DNA of 23,550 nt from a virus: positions 1 to 23,550 of the IMG/VR virus record IMGVR_UViG_3300036715_000367; one strand, written 5' to 3'. Each line of letters starts with the position of its first letter. Position 1 is the stretch's first letter. Shown in pieces: positions 1,246 to 16,472 of this stretch. The translations under genes were made by a program, and so were the position numbers. The notes beneath the pieces are model-generated. The model saw only the letters and a list, made by a program, of their open reading frames with translations, was not told where the DNA came from and made no database searches.

Positions 1246-1992
1246 TTATTTCTTTAATTCTTTGATCAGATGCATCGGGTCTGATTTTATTTCAATATTT
1301 GAATGATGCTTACAATTTATACCATGCCAACGAGCATAGGTATTATCTGTAACTTCTTTAAAACAATTGCTACATATTACTTTAGTTCTTGTTTTGCCAA
1401 ACATAGGATTATTAATTCCTTGTTTAGATTTTGATAGTTTTTTCTTATGCTCCGATGATTTAGGTTTGCATAATTTAGCTCTAGTATCTTCAGAATGCTT
1501 TCTCCCCAGATTTAATCCTAAACGGGATGTACCGAACATAGGATTATTTTCTCCAGACATATCAGCATGATTCATTCTCATTTTATCGCGGACTTTTTTA
1601 CTAAACCCAAATTTCCACCCTGCATCTAAATAAATTTGCACGTCAGATTGTTTAACAAAAATATTTACTTCGCTATTATGCATCCTAATTTTGCCTTGAC
1701 TAGATGTTTTTGTTGTCACTAAAGTAATGTTGTTTCTGTTAAAACTTCTCTTATCATTTTTAGCATTTGTTAAATAAAGAATAACACCTTCTAATAGACG
1801 CATTTCTTCGGGCGATCCAGTACTAATAATTTCTCTTTTCCAGAGAGTTTTGTCTGCTTCAATTAATGGCTTAACATACTTACTAGAGCATATATACCCA
1901 TCATTCGGATGGCAATTTTTTGCAGTTCGAGAACCAACATACCACATCATAGTTGGCGTATGAGTCCATTTGTAAACGTATGCAATAGTCAT
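1246..1992 (-). CDS. GIY-YIG homing endonuclease with NUMOD3 repeats and C-terminal zinc motif
   Basis: The 248-residue protein begins with a GIY-YIG nuclease core in degenerate form: YVYKW at residues 5-9, WYVGSR at 17-22, and a candidate catalytic Glu near residue 69. The middle is very basic and carries two NUMOD3-type DNA-binding motifs around ENNPMFG and INNPMFG. The C-terminus holds CSNC followed by RWHGINCKH, a likely zinc-binding element. This is the layout of free-standing Seg/Mob-type phage endonucleases, which cut a related genome so that their own gene is copied in. Its ATG overlaps the gp21 stop by one base (TAATG) and its stop lies 15 bases before gp22, so it is spliced into the head operon without breaking neighbours. 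It looks more A+T-rich than the flanking structural genes, consistent with transfer. Confidence 0.88.
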   Translation of the reverse strand: MTIAYVYKWTHTPTMMWYVGSRTAKNCHPNDGYICSSKYVKPLIEADKTLWKREIISTGSPEEMRLLEGVILYLTNAKNDKRSFNRNNITLVTTKTSSQGKIRMHNSEVNIFVKQSDVQIYLDAGWKFGFSKKVRDKMRMNHADMSGENNPMFGTSRLGLNLGRKHSEDTRAKLCKPKSSEHKKKLSKSKQGINNPMFGKTRTKVICSNCFKEVTDNTYARWHGINCKHHSNIEIKSDPMHLIKELKK

Positions 1993-8518: not shown

Positions 8519-9364
8519 ATGGACACTCAACGACCAAACCCACTTAGTGGTTACTTTCGCCAACCTTCCTTGTACATTAAGCTGCCGTCAAAAGGCAGAT
8601 ACTGGGAAGAAGGTGCGTTAAATCTCACTGCTACGGGCGAAATGCCCGTATACCCAATGAGCACAAAAGACGAAGTTATACTGCGCACACCAGACGCATT
8701 GCTCAACGGTCAAGGCATGGTTGATGTAATTCAAAGTTGCTGCCCAGCTATCACTGACGCCTGGAAAACGCCTAGTATAGATGTAGATGCCATATTGATC
8801 GCAATACGCATTGCCACGTACGGCAACGAAATGAACTTTGATTCTAAATGTGCACATTGCGGAGAAGAAAATGCTCACGATGTTGACCTGGCTACCACGT
8901 TAGCAGACATTAATTGCCCTGACTATAGTGTTGTTAACTACAAAGATCTTAAAATTAAGCTTAAACCGCAGCATTACTTTGATACCAACAATGCAAACAA
9001 AGTTCAATTTGAAGAGCAGCGTTTAGTCAACTTGCTCAATGATACTGTTATGGAACCAGAGGATAAAGCCAAACTGTTAACGGAGAGTATGAATAAACTA
9101 ACTAGTCTGGGTATTGGTTCGGTAGTAACTAGTACTGAGTACATAGAAATACCAGGTGGTCAACGCATTAGCAATGTAGATTTCATCACTGAACTGTATG
9201 AACGTGCAGAAAGTCAACTTGTAAAGACCTTGCAAGATCAGCTTAAAGTGTACGCAGAAGAAGCAAAAGTAAAGCCAGTCACATTATCTTGTTCTTCATG
9301 CGAAAAACCGTACAGGGTCGAACTGACGTTTGATTATGCAAGTTTTTTCGGCAAAGGCTTTTAA
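8519..9364 (+). CDS. 26: gp26-type baseplate/tail assembly chaperone protein
   Basis: The 281-residue protein opens with NPLSGYFRQPSLYIKLPSKG, then RYW, followed by LTATGEMPVYPMSTKDEVIL and TPDALLNGQGMVDVIQSC, the signature of the T4 gp26 (T4 baseplate protein) family. These proteins assist tail and baseplate hub assembly without being a major structural part. Two CxxC pairs (C111/C114 and C258/C261) could form a split zinc ribbon. The ATG has an AGGA site 8 bases upstream and a near-consensus late promoter. Codons 275-277 (AGT TTT TTC) contain a T TTT TTC slippery heptamer at 9343-9349, and the -1 frame from there is open to 9579, so a longer fused product is likely. It is longer than T4 gp26 (208 residues). 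Confidence 0.85.
   Translation: MDTQRPNPLSGYFRQPSLYIKLPSKGRYWEEGALNLTATGEMPVYPMSTKDEVILRTPDALLNGQGMVDVIQSCCPAITDAWKTPSIDVDAILIAIRIATYGNEMNFDSKCAHCGEENAHDVDLATTLADINCPDYSVVNYKDLKIKLKPQHYFDTNNANKVQFEEQRLVNLLNDTVMEPEDKAKLLTESMNKLTSLGIGSVVTSTEYIEIPGGQRISNVDFITELYERAESQLVKTLQDQLKVYAEEAKVKPVTLSCSSCEKPYRVELTFDYASFFGKGF
9343..9349 (+). promoter_or_regulatory. Candidate programmed -1 frameshift site (T TTT TTC)
   Basis: The heptamer fits X XXY YYZ in the reading frame of the gp26-type gene, four codons before its last sense codon. The -1 frame is closed by TGA at 9331-9333, just upstream, and then open without a stop until TAA at 9577-9579. A weak A+T-rich hairpin can be drawn at 9358-9373, eight bases downstream. 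The arrangement mirrors the G/GT frameshift of lambda-type tail chaperones. Confidence 0.65.
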
Positions 9365-9393
9365 CTGTTAAAGAAGATGACATAGAGGGATTT

Positions 9394-9579
9394 TTGTCAT
9401 CTTACGATAAGCAGATAAAAGCCATAAAAGAGGAAGCGTTGCGTTTAGTGTGGGGGATGAGGGGAAGTGTATCTTATTCCGAAGTCATGATGATGTCAAA
9501 CACAGAAAAAGGCATAATCGCGAAGATCATTAAAGATAATATTGAGACAACTAAGAAATCTGGTCTCCCATACTTTTAA
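9394..9579 (+). CDS. Short downstream domain of the tail chaperone (-1 frame extension or separate TTG-started protein)
   Basis: From the TTG at 9394 this is 61 residues; the frame is open from 9334. Residues such as LRLVWGMRGSVSYSEVMMMS and ETTKKSGLPYF look like a conserved small helical domain that I associate with the C-terminal or downstream chaperone part in marine T4-like phages. No ATG exists in the usable part before VMMMS. The TTG has a GAGGG sequence only 4 bases away, poor spacing. Translation through the upstream slippery site would add it to residue 277 of the gp26-type protein, giving a product of about 354 residues. Fusion by frameshift is my preferred reading; independent initiation at TTG is the alternative. 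Confidence 0.65.
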   Translation: MSSYDKQIKAIKEEALRLVWGMRGSVSYSEVMMMSNTEKGIIAKIIKDNIETTKKSGLPYF

Positions 9580-10007: not shown

Positions 10008-10193
10008 TTTAAAGTAAGTTAATTCAATTCGGATGGTCAAACGGTTATGAGGCATATCCATCGTCGTCCTGTAAAGGATAGTGACCAAACACACCTGGCA
10101 GCAAGGTGATTCCCGTCCGAGTGACACCAATGTCCTCTTTTCCTGGGATGCGTGAACTAAGCCCGCAAAAGCTATTGAACTGCTTACTTTAAA
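10008..10193. other. Nested inverted-repeat structure
   Basis: TTTAAAGTAAG (10008-10018) pairs perfectly with CTTACTTTAAA (10183-10193). TTCAAT (10023-10028) pairs with ATTGAA (10174-10179). ATTCGGATGG (10027-10036) pairs with CCGTCCGAGT (10113-10122), ten pairs including two G-U. Inside are TATCC/GGATA (10055-10080) and CACCT/AGGTG (10092-10108). The second and third helices compete for two bases. The organisation is that of a multi-helix RNA domain. Confidence 0.55.
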
Positions 10194-10348: not shown

Positions 10349-10774
10349 TTATAACTTGTTTAAAATATGTGAACCATGAACTCTTACGCTGATCTGGCCA
10401 TTGTAATAGTCCTTGGATTCGAGGACTTTTCTTTCGAATTGCTCTCGCGCTTCCACGTAGCTGCACACTGCCTTCGAAGCGCAGTAGTGCAATATCTCTC
10501 TGGTAAAGTTGTCTCTACCTAATTTTTCTACATCTGCGGACAATTCAACGCTTGACCCGTAATATTCCTGCCAATCAGAATCAACTTTACTACGAATCTT
10601 TTTTTTCTTCTTTGTCCCGTTCTTTAATTTTACTGTCTTTGTTGTGGTCTTTGCAAACTTTGCAAGCTTCTTTCCTACATATTTTCTACCGTTTGTTATA
10701 TTTGTTATAAGGTACACGAATCCAACGCAATCGTCTGGCAGTTCTGTAATCTCGGTATTGTTATGCATCCACAT
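10349..10774 (-). CDS. GIY-YIG endonuclease, small single-domain form
   Basis: The 141-residue protein has the nuclease core: VGFVYLI at residues 17-23, KYVGKK at 31-36, WQEYYGSS at 68-75, and a Glu-bearing helix YVEAREQF near 107-114. A Lys-rich insert (KNGTKKKKKIRSK) lies between the second and third motifs. There is no NUMOD3 or zinc-finger region, unlike the other two GIY-YIG genes here. Small proteins of this type are common as free-standing endonucleases in T4-like phages. It starts 18 bases after the second radical SAM gene and is the last gene of the minus-strand operon. ATG codons 1 and 3 are both possible starts. Whether it is a mobile element or has a host- or phage-DNA role is unknown. 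Confidence 0.82.
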   Translation of the reverse strand: MWMHNNTEITELPDDCVGFVYLITNITNGRKYVGKKLAKFAKTTTKTVKLKNGTKKKKKIRSKVDSDWQEYYGSSVELSADVEKLGRDNFTREILHYCASKAVCSYVEAREQFERKVLESKDYYNGQISVRVHGSHILNKL

Positions 10775-10792
10775 GTATACATAGTTATGCTC

Positions 10793-11800
10793 TTACCACT
10801 CACTTGCATATTTTTCATTAACTAATTTGCTATTGCACTTGGTTTTGCATTCTTGCCATTTAAATTCTTGAAACTCAGTAGTCCAATATGCATCATTTAG
10901 TATATCAGACATTGATCTTATATTGAGATCAAACTTATTTGCAGTCTCTTGCCACTCGGAATTATGTCCATACCTGTTGGCAACCCAGCAGCATGGAAAC
11001 ACTCTGCCACGAGAATCTAAGTATAAGCCCTTATTTCCTATGCCGCACAGCGGAATAATTGGTGTTTTATCTTTGTTTTTATTGAACAAGACCGTGTTAA
11101 TGCTATGTACTGGCGTAGCTAATCTATGCGTAAATTGCGTTATTTCCCGTTCGAAGCGGTGTGTGCTGCTGACAAACTTTATGCTAGGTTCTAGTGGATC
11201 ATTCGCTCCGTAAGAGCTATATATAGAGCCGAATTTAGTGCTTTTAGTCAGCTGAAACCTATCAACGCCCATGTACATTGCATTAGCCTTCATGTGCTCT
11301 ATATGCTCTTCGTTGAACTTAAATGCAATAGCGGCCCATACTATTTGACAATTTGACGCAGCCCGCAATGCCTTAATGCCGTCAGTGATGCTATCGTAAT
11401 CACTGTTGACTCTGTACAAGTTGTTGCTGTCAAAGTCGTAACCGTCGATGCTAAAGTGCACTGAATCTTTTTCAGACATTGTCATTCCGAGATTCTTCCA
11501 CCAATCAGCTTTCTTGTAGCTACCATTGGTAACAATGACGATCTCTACGTCTTTGACACTCTTAATATATTTGATAATGTCAATGAGATCATGTGCGTAG
11601 ATAGGATCACCATCATCACCACAGAACGTAATTTTCTCGACATCTGATATAATAAATTCAGGGGCGAACGCTTGTTTGAAAAACGCGAGGTCAAGCTCTG
11701 TGTTGACGAGCGAGGCAGGTACTTCCTGCCGAGCACAACGCGGACACTTCAATGTGCACTTGCTACTAACTTCGATATGCCAATGCCAAGTTGCTAACAT
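10793..11800 (-). CDS. Radical SAM protein with SPASM-like C-terminus (second of a pair)
   Basis: The 335-residue protein has the radical SAM cluster motif CTLKCPRC (C15, C19, C22), which binds the iron-sulfur cluster that cleaves S-adenosylmethionine to a radical. CGDDGDPIYAHDLI near residue 60 and VTNGSYKKADWW near 90 are the SAM-binding glycine and strand motifs. The C-terminal region has LCGIGNKGLYLDSRGRVFPC, a following C, then ECKTKC, a cysteine pattern like SPASM/Twitch domains that bind extra clusters. Such enzymes often modify peptides, but some act on small molecules or RNA. Its ATG overlaps the stop of the preceding radical SAM gene by one base (TAATG), so the two are probably made and used together. 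The substrate is not evident from the sequence. Confidence 0.88.
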   Translation of the reverse strand: MLATWHWHIEVSSKCTLKCPRCARQEVPASLVNTELDLAFFKQAFAPEFIISDVEKITFCGDDGDPIYAHDLIDIIKYIKSVKDVEIVIVTNGSYKKADWWKNLGMTMSEKDSVHFSIDGYDFDSNNLYRVNSDYDSITDGIKALRAASNCQIVWAAIAFKFNEEHIEHMKANAMYMGVDRFQLTKSTKFGSIYSSYGANDPLEPSIKFVSSTHRFEREITQFTHRLATPVHSINTVLFNKNKDKTPIIPLCGIGNKGLYLDSRGRVFPCCWVANRYGHNSEWQETANKFDLNIRSMSDILNDAYWTTEFQEFKWQECKTKCNSKLVNEKYASEW

Positions 11801-12699
11801 TATACTTTGTCCTGAAATTGGTTATCGTGCCTGCTTACCGCATTAGCATAAGTCCCGCAATGAAACAAGCAAAATTTATGCGGATTTGTTGTTAAACTAT
11901 TTTCCAATGTAACATAATCCTTTTCTTCTAACCATGTCTTCATGGTATCGTCTAAATCGAAAATTTCATTACCCAGAAAGCAGCAAGGTAGTAATTGACC
12001 GGTGGCCGCAACGTATAAACTTTTCTCTTCTAATGCATGGCAGTGTGGTTTACCGGTGGGCTGCACATAATTATATCCCTTAGGTGGTTTCAAAAATTCA
12101 ATAGGGCGTTCCAAGAACCTAGAACTCACCTTGTGTAAGAACAAGTTGAATCCCATATCTTCTGCCATTGCCCTACATTCTTCTACTTGGTGTTCATTGT
12201 GTGCAAACGTAAGCATGTTCCAATGAGCCTTACCGCCGGCGCCTATGTACGCTTGTACATTTTCCATCAACTTTTTCCACTGCACATTAACTCTGTAAAT
12301 GTGGTTCGTGTCTTCTAATCCATCTATGCTAAACACAACGTAGTCTAACGGGCCGTACATAATTTCTGCAAGGCTCTTCCAAAACTTAGTATTGCGCACA
12401 CCACCATTGGTGTTCATGCCCAACACGATATTGGGGTTGATGTCTTTAAACCACTCGAAAATGGCGAGGCATTCTTTCGCTACTGCAGGGTCACCGTAGT
12501 CCCCGCAAGCAAACATTTTATCTAACCCGCGTATAAAATCTTCACTAAACAATTCTTTGAGGCGATCAAGAGATAAATCATATTCTATATCGCCGCGGCC
12601 TTGTGTAGGATCCATGCGAGCGCATTGAGGGCAAGCGGCATTACATCTAGTAGTAAACTCTAGATGTAATACTTTGATATTCTCTTGAGCGAAACTCAT
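11800..12699 (-). CDS. Radical SAM protein with SPASM-like C-terminus (first of a pair)
   Basis: The 299-residue protein has LEFTTRCNAACPQCAR near its start (C19, C23, C26), the radical SAM CxxxCxxC motif. FACGDYGDPAVAKECL near residue 65 and MNTNGGVRNTKFW near 98 follow the same plan as its neighbour. The C-terminus has CHALEEKSLYVAATGQLLPC followed directly by CF, then KFCLFHC, a SPASM-like cysteine set. Its ATG overlaps the gp46 stop (ATGA), tying expression to the recombination genes. The two radical SAM proteins are clearly related yet diverged, suggesting two steps of one modification or a heterodimer. A queuosine-type QueE role is unlikely because QueE is shorter and lacks the C-terminal cysteines. 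Confidence 0.88.
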   Translation of the reverse strand: MSFAQENIKVLHLEFTTRCNAACPQCARMDPTQGRGDIEYDLSLDRLKELFSEDFIRGLDKMFACGDYGDPAVAKECLAIFEWFKDINPNIVLGMNTNGGVRNTKFWKSLAEIMYGPLDYVVFSIDGLEDTNHIYRVNVQWKKLMENVQAYIGAGGKAHWNMLTFAHNEHQVEECRAMAEDMGFNLFLHKVSSRFLERPIEFLKPPKGYNYVQPTGKPHCHALEEKSLYVAATGQLLPCCFLGNEIFDLDDTMKTWLEEKDYVTLENSLTTNPHKFCLFHCGTYANAVSRHDNQFQDKV

Positions 12700-14465
12700 A
12701 CTATCTCAGTCTCTGTACCGTAAGTTGTGTAACCGTTCTCTTTAATGACGTTGAACACCTGGTTAACTCGACCAACCAACTCGTCCTTGTGCGAAACAAG
12801 CCAAATGCTCTTGTCACCTTCGCGGCTCATCTTCTTAAGGATAGCCAGTGTGTTTTCAACACCAGCTGTATCCATTCCGTTGTCAACAAGCTCGTCGATG
12901 AACAATAGGTTAACAGTTTGATACAAGCTTTCCCATACATCACGGAACGACCAAGACAAGCTGAGAATCAAACGAGTACGTTCACCGCGAGACAAGTTGT
13001 CAAAGTCTAGCTCGCGTCCCAGTTCTTCAATTGCTACTGTTAGGTCATTATTAAACTTCACTGTATGCGGTAGACCAATCTTGTCGAGGTAGAACGATAG
13101 GCGAGCATTCAAGTGGGTTAAGTTTTGATCGATGATTAGCTTACGGATAAAGCTATCCTTGTTAGTAAGCATCTTGAACAGGAACTCTTGGTGGTCCTTA
13201 ACACTGTTCAACTGGTTGATATGGTCGTACTTGACCTCTTCGATACCCTTTGTCTTCATCTCTTCTATCTGCTCTGCATAAGGATCTTTGTCCTCTTCCT
13301 TGGTGGCAAGTTGCTGCAAAATGTTTGCAAGCTTTGCTTTATGATTTACAGCTTCTGCTTCTGTGTCGTAATACACCTTGGGCTGTGTCCCTAGCTCACC
13401 CAAGTCTTCCAATGCTAATTTAAGGTCAGTGAGTTGATCCGAGTATTCGGCATAGTCGTTAACTGCGGCATCAAGTTCTTTACGTTTGCGCAATACAACC
13501 TCGGCGTATGCATCATCGTGGAAATCTTGCCCGCAAGTGTGACACTTGTGCGCTTCCAGGCTTTCAATTTCATTGCTAAGTTTGTTAACCAGCTTTTCTT
13601 CTTTATCTTTAGCTAACTCTGTCCGTTTGATAGCAGAGTTTAACCCGTTAATGTCATTGTTAAGCTGTGTCCACGCTGCCACCGCCTTGTGTGCAGTAAG
13701 CTCTTTGTCAATGTTGATGTGGCTTAGTTCGTCGTAAGACGTAGACAGCTTTTCGATGTCATCTGTTTGTTTATTAATCCAAAGTGTTTGCCTGCGCTTC
13801 AACGATTCAATTTGCTCGTCGATACGCTTGTTAGCGTTGAGCACAGCATCAATACGATACTGCTCTTGCGTGATAGCTTTCTTTGTCTCACCAGCCTGTT
13901 CTTTGAGTGTGTCAGCCTTCTCGGACAGCAACGTAATACCAAGCAGTTGCTCGATAATAACACGTTGCTCGCCAGCTTTCATGTCCAGGAACGGCGTTGT
14001 GTATGTGTTTAGCGCAATAATGTGCTTGAACATATCGTGCGACATGCAAAGCATACGTTCGATTTCTTGTTGAGTCTCGCGAGAATCGCCCTGTGCCTCG
14101 TCGGTAGCTTCCTTCTTTTCGCCTGCCACCCAAAAGCGCATAACGCTCGGTTTGCGTCCGCGCTCAATCTTGTACTCTACACCATCCTTCTCAAAATCAA
14201 TTGTTACCAACATGTTCTTGGCGTTGGTCTTATTGATTAAGTTATCCTTCTTGATATTAGATAGCGCACTACCAAACAAGCCAAAGCTTAACGCATTGAT
14301 AATGGTAGTTTTACCTGTACCATTTCTACTCCCGCCATCATCTCCACCTAAATCGTTATTTTCACCTAACACCAAAGTTAAGTCGTTACGATCGAAGTTG
14401 ACAGCTTGCGTGGCATTGCCGACGCTCATGAAGTTTTTAACAGTTAGGCTTTTGATTTTAAACAT
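12696..14465 (-). CDS. 46: Recombination endonuclease ATPase subunit gp46 (Rad50/SbcC-like)
   Basis: This 589-residue protein is the ATPase partner of gp47. A Walker A motif, GSRNGTGKTT, lies near residues 45-54, preceded by an acidic/glycine insertion (GENNDLGGDDG). Two long coiled-coil arms flank a zinc hook CHTC at residues 308-311. The ABC signature LSRGER is at 491-496, Walker B LLFIDE near 520-525, and the switch His in LVSHKDE near 568. In T4, gp46/gp47 resects DNA ends for recombination-dependent replication and host DNA degradation. The ATG is supported by the family start but lacks a ribosome binding site. A sigma70-like promoter lies so close that the transcript may begin almost at the ATG. 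The stop overlaps the first radical SAM start. Confidence 0.96.
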   Translation of the reverse strand: MFKIKSLTVKNFMSVGNATQAVNFDRNDLTLVLGENNDLGGDDGGSRNGTGKTTIINALSFGLFGSALSNIKKDNLINKTNAKNMLVTIDFEKDGVEYKIERGRKPSVMRFWVAGEKKEATDEAQGDSRETQQEIERMLCMSHDMFKHIIALNTYTTPFLDMKAGEQRVIIEQLLGITLLSEKADTLKEQAGETKKAITQEQYRIDAVLNANKRIDEQIESLKRRQTLWINKQTDDIEKLSTSYDELSHINIDKELTAHKAVAAWTQLNNDINGLNSAIKRTELAKDKEEKLVNKLSNEIESLEAHKCHTCGQDFHDDAYAEVVLRKRKELDAAVNDYAEYSDQLTDLKLALEDLGELGTQPKVYYDTEAEAVNHKAKLANILQQLATKEEDKDPYAEQIEEMKTKGIEEVKYDHINQLNSVKDHQEFLFKMLTNKDSFIRKLIIDQNLTHLNARLSFYLDKIGLPHTVKFNNDLTVAIEELGRELDFDNLSRGERTRLILSLSWSFRDVWESLYQTVNLLFIDELVDNGMDTAGVENTLAILKKMSREGDKSIWLVSHKDELVGRVNQVFNVIKENGYTTYGTETEIV

Positions 14466-14559: not shown

Positions 14560-15459
14560 TTAATAAGAAATTGAGTGAAGTTTGAACATATCAAAAATTT
14601 CGCCAGTTGATTTGAACCAGTCTCTATAGTCGTACGCCGGAATTTCAAACCCGTAGTGTATTTGTATAAAATAGTTAATAGTGGCTTGGCTAAACAAATC
14701 GTTTTGCAAGTCAACTAGATCTATATTCTCGTGATTTTTGATGCTGTTGAATACATCAACACACCTAACGTACCAACTTATGTGCACTGCATTGTTTACA
14801 TAAAATTTGTCGTACAATATTTTAAAATCGTCTAACGGCCCCACTTTAGACAACGCGGGGTATAACGTGTCGTAAGACATATAGTCGCGCACGTCGATGT
14901 TGATAACACCATCAACCGGTTGCCAATCGTGTCTGAATTGGTGCTCTTTGAGATATAAAAAATATTTTTCTCTTACTGCCCAAGGCTCGGTATTGTCCCA
15001 CGCCCCTGCGTCAGGCTGTATAAACTGGCCTATGGAAGTCTCGTGTTCCAAGACCTCACTCATACATCTGGTGTAAAATGATTTTGCACTAAACGGCCAT
15101 GAGTAATCGTCGTAGCAAACCCGAACATACGTTGCGCCCGGGAATATAGCCATGTAATTATTAGTGTCGTCAGTTATTCCACTATCCACAATTACGGTCG
15201 CTGACTTACCGTTTTTAGTTATTCTGCGATAGTCTTGCTCGAGAGATGTTGCTGCATATACTGCATACTTTTCTTTGTCGTAGTATTTTTCAATCGTGGA
15301 GGTAGTAAAATGGCTGCTACCACTTTTAAAGTCGTTAGCAAATTTATCGTCAGAATCTACAGAATTGAAATCTTTACCGTAGTTGGATAAGATTAAGTGA
15401 GTGAAATGCCCAAAGCTTCCTGACGGATATTGAACAGTTACTAATTTGTCGTAAATCAT
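14560..15459 (-). CDS. Sulfotransferase-like P-loop protein, second copy
   Basis: I do not recognise a named family with certainty. The 299-residue protein begins with a strand and glycine-rich loop, LVTVQYPSGSFGHFTHLIL, like the phosphosulfate-binding start of sulfotransferase-fold proteins. The rest is mixed helix and strand, with aromatic-rich segments such as DDYSWPFSAKSFY. The gene shares its N-terminal layout and length with the one at 16465-17340, so the two appear to be distant paralogues flanking gp47. Its ATG overlaps the gp47 stop (ATGA). A role in sulfating a phage or host molecule is only suggested by the fold-like motif. The canonical PKSGTTW signature is absent, so another P-loop transferase, or a non-enzymatic role, is possible. 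Confidence 0.5.
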   Translation of the reverse strand: MIYDKLVTVQYPSGSFGHFTHLILSNYGKDFNSVDSDDKFANDFKSGSSHFTTSTIEKYYDKEKYAVYAATSLEQDYRRITKNGKSATVIVDSGITDDTNNYMAIFPGATYVRVCYDDYSWPFSAKSFYTRCMSEVLEHETSIGQFIQPDAGAWDNTEPWAVREKYFLYLKEHQFRHDWQPVDGVINIDVRDYMSYDTLYPALSKVGPLDDFKILYDKFYVNNAVHISWYVRCVDVFNSIKNHENIDLVDLQNDLFSQATINYFIQIHYGFEIPAYDYRDWFKSTGEIFDMFKLHSISY

Positions 15460-16472
15460 AAATTGCGGTATAGATCCAGTAACAATTTCTTGTTGAACTT
15501 ATCACTCTCGATGTTCGTAATCTGCTTGGTTACGATTGTATCAATTGACTCGAACTTGATGTTGCCCTTAGTAGCAAACTGTTCAAAGTCTGTGTTCTTC
15601 TGAGGAAGCAATGTGAGTTCACGCAGCCCATAAGTAGAAATGAATGTGTCCTTGATAAAGTTAGCTTCTTCGTAACTTATCTCGATATCAATGTCTACAC
15701 GAACATGCATCTTAGGCTTAAGCATGACCTCGGTGTGCGCAAGCACATCGGACAACTTAAACACACGATACTTAGGCTGATCAGGCCAAGCGTGAAACAC
15801 GGGCTCTTTGCCCCATTCCATAATCATCATGCCGCGATCATCGTCACCGGCATCAGCGTAATTGTGTGGGAAACAGTTTCCAACGTAGGTAATGTTCTTC
15901 GCCGATTGGCGTTTGTGGAAATGCCCCGAAAATACGTGCTTGAAGCCGGTAAAGTCTTCGCGTTTAATCTCACCATGATCAGGCATCTGGACCATAGCGT
16001 TCATGTAGTAACCCGGAAGCTCAAAGTGACCGAACATGTACTGTCCCTTGAGTTTATGTATCTTCTTGTGCTCTTCACCTACAAGCCAAGGGGCAATTAC
16101 TACATCACCCTCGTTGTGCCAATCGTTGCAAATGGTCACATTCTTCAAATGCTTTGCAAATTCCACACTTTGAATATCACGCTTGTCTCTGTAGTAGAGG
16201 TCGTGATTGCCAGGAATGAAGAACACACGATCGAAGTTTGCATTCATATGCTCTAACGCTTGCAAGCTATAGTTCAATGTGACAATGTTCAAACTCGCTC
16301 GATTGTTGTGCCAATCACCCAAAAACAAACATACATCGCACCCTTCTTCTTTAGCTTTTGTGGTTGCCCATTTAACAAAATTTAGACAATCTTCATTGTG
16401 TGTTTGACTGTTTGATTTCAGTCCAAAGTGAATGTCTGTGAAGACGGCTGCTTTTTTAAATAGGTTAGACAT
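15456..16472 (-). CDS. 47: Recombination endonuclease nuclease subunit gp47 (Mre11/SbcD-like)
   Basis: The 338-residue protein is a calcineurin-type metallophosphoesterase. Metal-binding motifs appear in order: FTDIHFG (D13, H15), FLGDWHNN (D53), GNHD at residues 88-91, FGHFE with H149, and GHFHKRQ at 183-189. This is the Mre11/SbcD pattern and corresponds to T4 gp47, which forms a nuclease complex with gp46. The C-terminal 100 residues lack the catalytic motifs and probably form the capping and gp46-binding part. Its start overlaps the upstream sulfotransferase-like gene by 8 bases and its stop overlaps the next copy, so a transferase-like gene separates it from gp46; in T4 only small genes lie between 47 and 46. 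Confidence 0.95.
   Translation of the reverse strand: MSNLFKKAAVFTDIHFGLKSNSQTHNEDCLNFVKWATTKAKEEGCDVCLFLGDWHNNRASLNIVTLNYSLQALEHMNANFDRVFFIPGNHDLYYRDKRDIQSVEFAKHLKNVTICNDWHNEGDVVIAPWLVGEEHKKIHKLKGQYMFGHFELPGYYMNAMVQMPDHGEIKREDFTGFKHVFSGHFHKRQSAKNITYVGNCFPHNYADAGDDDRGMMIMEWGKEPVFHAWPDQPKYRVFKLSDVLAHTEVMLKPKMHVRVDIDIEISYEEANFIKDTFISTYGLRELTLLPQKNTDFEQFATKGNIKFESIDTIVTKQITNIESDKFNKKLLLDLYRNL

Follow-up and report, generated by a model that had tools for sequence, protein, structure and literature searches.

Does a phage gene of the gp26 type encode a single protein, or does it give rise to two? In phage lambda, whose slippery heptamer is G GGA AAG (here it is T TTT TTC), as in its counterparts in P2, HK97 and other phages, a short and a long tail chaperone, G and GT, are made from one start by a -1 slip at a heptamer close to where the first gene ends, and the small C-terminal domain of the long product has no start of its own. 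According to the review of Atkins et al., this frameshift is a conserved trait of long-tailed phages, "except T4" (PMC5009743). The question is raised by a stretch of viral DNA of 23,550 nucleotides (IMG/VR record IMGVR_UViG_3300036715_000367; hereafter the window), in which a reading of the sequence alone had proposed a probable programmed -1 frameshift in a gp26-type gene. Apart from the sequence of the heptamer, the predicted arrangement would resemble that of lambda in these respects.

The product of the gene matches PF12322 (T4_baseplate; E 3.2e-12, 47 bits with a curated cut-off of 24.5) and PHROG 150 (baseplate hub; E 1.5e-14), and its coding sequence ends ...GCA AGT TTT TTC GGC AAA GGC TTT TAA, so that the heptamer stands in the X_XXY_YYZ phase (AGT TTT TTC) with four sense codons ahead of the zero-frame stop. 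This position of the heptamer, and a -1 frame closed by a TGA just upstream and thereafter open to its own stop, are found in the sequence as first described (Table 1). The first -1 codon is CGG, from 9349, and the predicted fusion has 353 residues (39.8 kDa); of the sizes originally given, that of the short product was right and that of the long one (about 354) has to be adjusted.

Table 1. Features of the gp26-type locus and its candidate frameshift signals (window coordinates)
Feature	Position	Strand	Remarks
gp26-type gene, short G-like product	8519..9364	+	281 aa, 31.5 kDa; PF12322 and PHROG 150 matches
TGA closing the -1 frame, 5' of the heptamer	9331..9333	+	sequence
slippery heptamer T_TTT_TTC, in frame	9343..9349	+	sequence; conserved in 44 clusters
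-1 frame extension, T-like domain	9350..9579	+	76 residues after FF; stop TAA 9577-9579
outer stem, 5' arm GGCUUUUA	9356..9363	+	6 nt after heptamer; pairs with 9416-9423
additional 5-bp helix	9365-9369/9410-9414	+	predicted fold
inner hairpin inside the outer stem	9373..9405	+	arms 9373-9382 and 9395-9405
outer stem, 3' arm UAAAAGCC	9416..9423	+	pairs with 9356-9363

A megablast search of the window locus against phages gave no match. On its upstream side the gp26-type gene has a divergent 839-aa gene as its neighbor; downstream, the first gene to follow encodes a SegE-type endonuclease (10349-10774, minus strand; GIY-YIG, of the homing-endonuclease type). Downstream of the gp26 locus, at 10031-10173 on the minus strand, there is a full-length Rfam match to the Polynucleobacter-1 RNA (RF01718, 80.3 bits). 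Further on, two adjoining radical SAM genes (10793-12699, minus strand), both matching PHROG 21308, lie next to genes of the SbcC (12696-14465) and SbcD (15456-16472) kinds, which are themselves separated by a 299-aa ORF of unknown kind. A second gene of the homing-endonuclease type, encoding a NUMOD3 protein (1246-1992, minus strand), adjoins the prohead protease gene.

By itself, the heptamer of the window is weak evidence and not significant, because when the gp26 protein was held fixed and its codons were drawn from the window's genes, T_TTT_TT arose in 26% of the synonymous shuffles (P = 0.26), each time at the FF close to the C-terminus. It becomes compelling because it is conserved, because the -1 ORF bears a coding signature and because of the RNA fold downstream. 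Searches with tblastn found a gp26 relative in 62 phage records and, in Atu_ph07, the -1 extension as well, in the -1 frame of gp26. The 3' ends of gp26 were then compared among 16 annotated jumbo phages and CM1, 21 IMG/VR relatives that are complete there, and 81 cyanophage-like or Rhizobium-like contigs; T TTT TTC was present throughout these sets, the exceptions being XacN1 and CM1, which have T TTT TTT. It is also found in Sf-FS3, IC12, VH7D, AsFcp_1, S-CAM1 and phiAS5, and Y68 has T TTT TTG. Altogether the in-frame T TTT TTN occurs at 123 loci that fall into 44 clusters (at about 85% identity), with phiAS5 in addition, and the groups that bear it are jumbo phages, cyanophages, Rhizobium phages and some Straboviridae. 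By cluster the heptamer is TTTTTTC in 41, TTTTTTT in two and TTTTTTG in one. The codon ahead of the FF is NNT in all 44, despite encoding seven different amino acids (S, D, N, H, A, R and Y); the first Phe codon is likewise TTT in 44 of 44, and the second is TTC in 41. Were the clusters independent, the chance of such codon fixation would be about 10^-34, a figure that is indicative only, as the clusters are related. The comparison of gp26 homologues thus finds both the heptamer and the -1 extension conserved, and a programmed -1 frameshift in the gp26-type gene is strongly supported by this sequence evidence.

If the gene does yield two products, what would they do? The "baseplate hub" annotation allows a reading in which the frameshift is real and both products are components of the hub rather than tail assembly chaperones. 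T4 gp26 has been assigned to the hub by genetics (PMC3004832), and in the record of phage CBB the gp26 homologue is labelled "structural protein", a label that would suit a part of the virion and not a chaperone acting transiently. However, Leiman et al. also list gp26 and gp51 among the hub assembly chaperones; in their account gp51 is essential for assembly, does not occur in the particle and has no known function (PMC3004832). Lambda-type tail chaperones, moreover, typically have a long form made by frameshifting (PMC5009743). The AF2 model of the window gp26 (pLDDT 83.4) has as its best VIA-align match the HK97 tail assembly chaperone (2ob9; Z 7.0, 101 of 107 residues). Its lead over unrelated helical pieces is slight (the next has Z 6.8 over 62 residues), and its Z, being below 8, is no higher than chance can give in such searches; the HK97 chaperone is nonetheless the match that the hypothesis predicts. 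Foldseek alone gave nothing below E 0.2 for the gp26 model, the HK97 chaperone being ranked first only by VIA-align; a sequence search of the PDB with gp26 and gp51 found no solved relative, and the model of the extension (pLDDT 70) had no useful match in BFVD and the PDB. On balance, we regard hub components as an unlikely identity for the two proteins, and we infer a role in tail assembly chaperoning.

The comparison with lambda has its limits. No sequence homology to G or GT was detected, and jumbo phages, the window included, do not have the gp26-type gene next to, or ahead of, the one for the tape measure, as the lambda G/GT system does; in Atu_ph07, gp701 encodes the tape measure and gp686 is the hub gene (PMC6102473). 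In the Rhizobium phages IC12 and Y68, on the other hand, it does come after the tail tube gene, which speaks for the proposed reading. Since it is not directly upstream of the tape measure gene, we treat it as G/GT-like in its working and not as a member of that family. The division of labor in lambda also differs from what the sequence-only reading had supposed, namely that the T domain binds the tape measure: in the published model that task falls to the G part, the T part having the major tail protein as its partner (PMC5009743).

A quite different possibility is that the ORF past the slip site is a small gene in its own right, equivalent to the short "gp51" of the cyanophages, which is reached by re-initiation or translational coupling, and that the heptamer is incidental. 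The -1 frame itself bears the marks of a protein-coding sequence. At the T TTT TTN loci the heptamer leads in every case into a -1 ORF under purifying selection. Among the moderately diverged pairs of relatives, which alone are informative enough for a ratio, w is mostly 0.04-0.25 in the -1 frame and mostly about 1 or greater in the other two; for the window compared with its relatives L024 and L028, the values are 0.17-0.22 in the -1 frame and above 1 in the others. No conserved start codon was found in the -1 extension among the sampled phages. In PA5oct, the 75 codons of the extension contain no ATG, GTG or TTG at all; in RaK2, XacN1, L021, L022 and phiAS5 there is no start codon near the 5' end of the extension; and in the rest of the sample the position of the first ATG downstream varies from codon 3 to codon 58. 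Yet the codons that precede these variable starts are kept, the FFR..LL at the beginning of the -1 frame persisting even though the zero-frame endings differ, and the silent positions of the heptamer are fixed. In the window, the first start-type codon of the -1 frame is indeed, as had been noted, a TTG (at 9394, extension codon 17), and no other early candidate is present; it is less "poorly spaced" than was claimed, because a GAGG lies 5 nt upstream, and to that extent it favors an independent gene.

So do the cyanophages, Phosso, 121Q and Y68, in which an ATG overlaps or lies just past the gp26 stop; in the cyanophages, this ATG could start a small protein alone. The pattern to be expected of an independent gene, with a good start and no slippery heptamer, was seen only in Cygsa01 and K369 among the sampled phages, both having an ATG at the gp26 stop. 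The sampled jumbo relatives all keep the heptamer, and the sampled Ackermannviridae phage is without it. That phage, Mooltan (L136, around 2013), lacks both heptamer and early ATG, and an unannotated -1 ORF resembling the extension comes after its gp26. A last point against a separate gene is that in T4 these two parts are joined covalently, as gp51. For the heptamer-bearing phages we consider an independently started gene highly improbable.

The RNA around the slip site provides the third line of support for frameshifting. The 77 nt that lie 3' of the heptamer in the window fold with a minimum free energy of -27.9 kcal/mol (z -6.57; none of 200 shuffles was as good), and the z of the window's downstream fold ranges from -6.6 to -7.4. 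The predicted outer stem of 8 bp extends into the zero-frame stop codon. In 12 relatives, 92.7% of its cells are paired, with two-sided changes at three pairs, versus 38-59% for slid versions of the same stem. Equivalents of the outer stem are present in Phosso, Atu_ph07, L019-L022, L024, L025 and L028; a stem of analogous kind occurs in XacN1 (z -3.9), and L026 and L027 form theirs in a shifted register. A downstream structure was looked for, and not found, in the RaK2-like phages and L033-L035. The cyanophages have a hairpin 3' of the heptamer, with covariation chiefly at one pair, and also a Shine-Dalgarno-like GGAGGG at a fixed place about 10 nt upstream in 35 of 44 distinct sites, the others having GAGGG or GAAGG. 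Slippage of RNA polymerase on the T run, inserting a base and so opening the -1 frame at the level of transcription, would account for the invariance of the six Ts (seven in XacN1 and CM1), but six is a short run for such slippage, the heptamer retains the ribosomal X_XXY_YYZ phase and the downstream structure and, in the cyanophages, the SD-like site lie at distances typical for ribosomal stimulators, so we find this explanation scarcely credible.

We therefore return to ribosomal frameshifting, and put at roughly 0.85 the probability that the gp26-type gene yields two proteins from one start by a -1 slip, that these are likely G-like and GT-like chaperones, and that T4 uses the paralogues 26 and 51 instead. 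Most ribosomes would stop at 9364 and release the 281-residue protein; a minority would pause at the RNA structure 6 nt past T TTT TTC, both tRNA-Phe would slip back by one base, and translation would go on in the -1 frame as far as 9579, yielding a protein of 353 residues that ends in a small helical C-terminal domain. The part shared by both products would most likely coat or fold the tape measure, while the C-terminal domain, made less often, would recruit a tail or hub component. T4 and the phages close to it lack the slip site; gene 26, encoding the core only, and gene 51, encoding the core plus the tail, would take its place. The sequence itself shows the slip site and how widely it is kept, selection on the -1 frame, the RNA signals, and that core and extension are homologous to gp51; the occurrence of frameshifting, its rate and the chaperone roles are what we infer.

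The T4 part of this reading can be examined independently. T4 gp26 (208 aa; E 9e-64) and gp51 (249 aa; E 4e-52) both match PF12322, as does the window gene, and on this evidence are paralogues; gp51 carries about 48 further residues as a C-terminal tail. In hhalign comparisons, the profile of this tail matched the extension of the cyanophages and KVP40-like phages at 96.8% (its score of 49.8 exceeding the 20.2 reached by the best among 100 column shuffles) and that of the jumbo phages more weakly (23.0; shuffles 18.2), the jumbo and cyanophage extensions scoring 31.6 with each other (shuffles 16.6). Full-length gp51 aligned end to end with the predicted fusions (241 columns, 99%). By these profile comparisons, the C-terminal tail of gp51 is homologous to the -1 extension. 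There are two PF12322 copies in each of six intact T4-like genomes, versus one in each of 21 non-T4 genomes with a match, phiAS5 included (the SCTP-2 copy is too diverged for the model). A seventh T4-like genome has gp26 together with a gp51 gene that the PF12322 search finds in two pieces (L053, G004:125062-125666), either by sequencing error or by a real break. A frameshift in the T4 gp26 gene itself was considered and rejected: none of eight T4-like gp26 genes has the heptamer, and the -1 frame merely enters gene 25.

In the tree, T4 gp26 and gp51 are sister groups with moderate support (86/79), adjoining the frameshifting Straboviridae VH7D and AsFcp_1 (84/93), which fits a duplication within that lineage. 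Because of the paralogy, the homology of the tail, the end-to-end alignment and the two copies versus one, T4 probably makes a G-like gp26 and a GT-like gp51 from duplicated genes. The genes are thus separate in T4, as the sequence-only reading had it, but do not correspond to "G" and "T", gp51 being a second copy of G with a T-like tail fused to it. Three architectures emerge: a single gene with a frameshift, a separate ATG-started small gene (Cygsa01 and K369), and the two divergent T4 paralogues, which differ from the first in having no slip site. We judge it likely that, in the T4 superfamily at large (jumbo phages, cyanophages and KVP40-like phages), one gene makes G-like and GT-like chaperones by a conserved -1 frameshift, and that T4 and its close relatives duplicated the gene instead, with gp26 as G and gp51 as GT.

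The same C-terminal domain is found in the short "gp51" of the cyanophages and marine vibriophages. In phiAS5, which we take to be close to Aeh1, the annotation contains only a truncated 40-aa ORF in place of a -1 extension without an early start (L172, 1462-1584); as its slip site and this extension are present, so would be the gp51-like tail, hidden in the -1 frame. In their treatment of gp51, Sullivan et al. (2010) report that Aeh1 lacks the gene, and that the gp51 of cyanophages and vibriophages lacks the first ~200 residues while its C-terminus matches T4 gp51; the passages concerned tie this short gp51 neither to gp26 nor to frameshifting (PMC3037559). In the open-access journal literature, no link of gp26 or gp51 to frameshifting was found. 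The missing ~200 residues may be explained as gp26 itself, joined to the short gp51 by a -1 slip.

The conservation of the slip site points to T4 obtaining such a short and a long product too, from its duplicate genes 26 and 51. If this is true, T4 would no longer be an exception to tail-chaperone frameshifting, and gp51 would gain a function; a single hypothesis would cover the T4 "exception", the function of gp51 and the residues missing from its cyanophage counterpart. Many annotated genomes, of jumbo phages, cyanophages and some Straboviridae, seem to omit or truncate a protein that would be made only by frameshifting.
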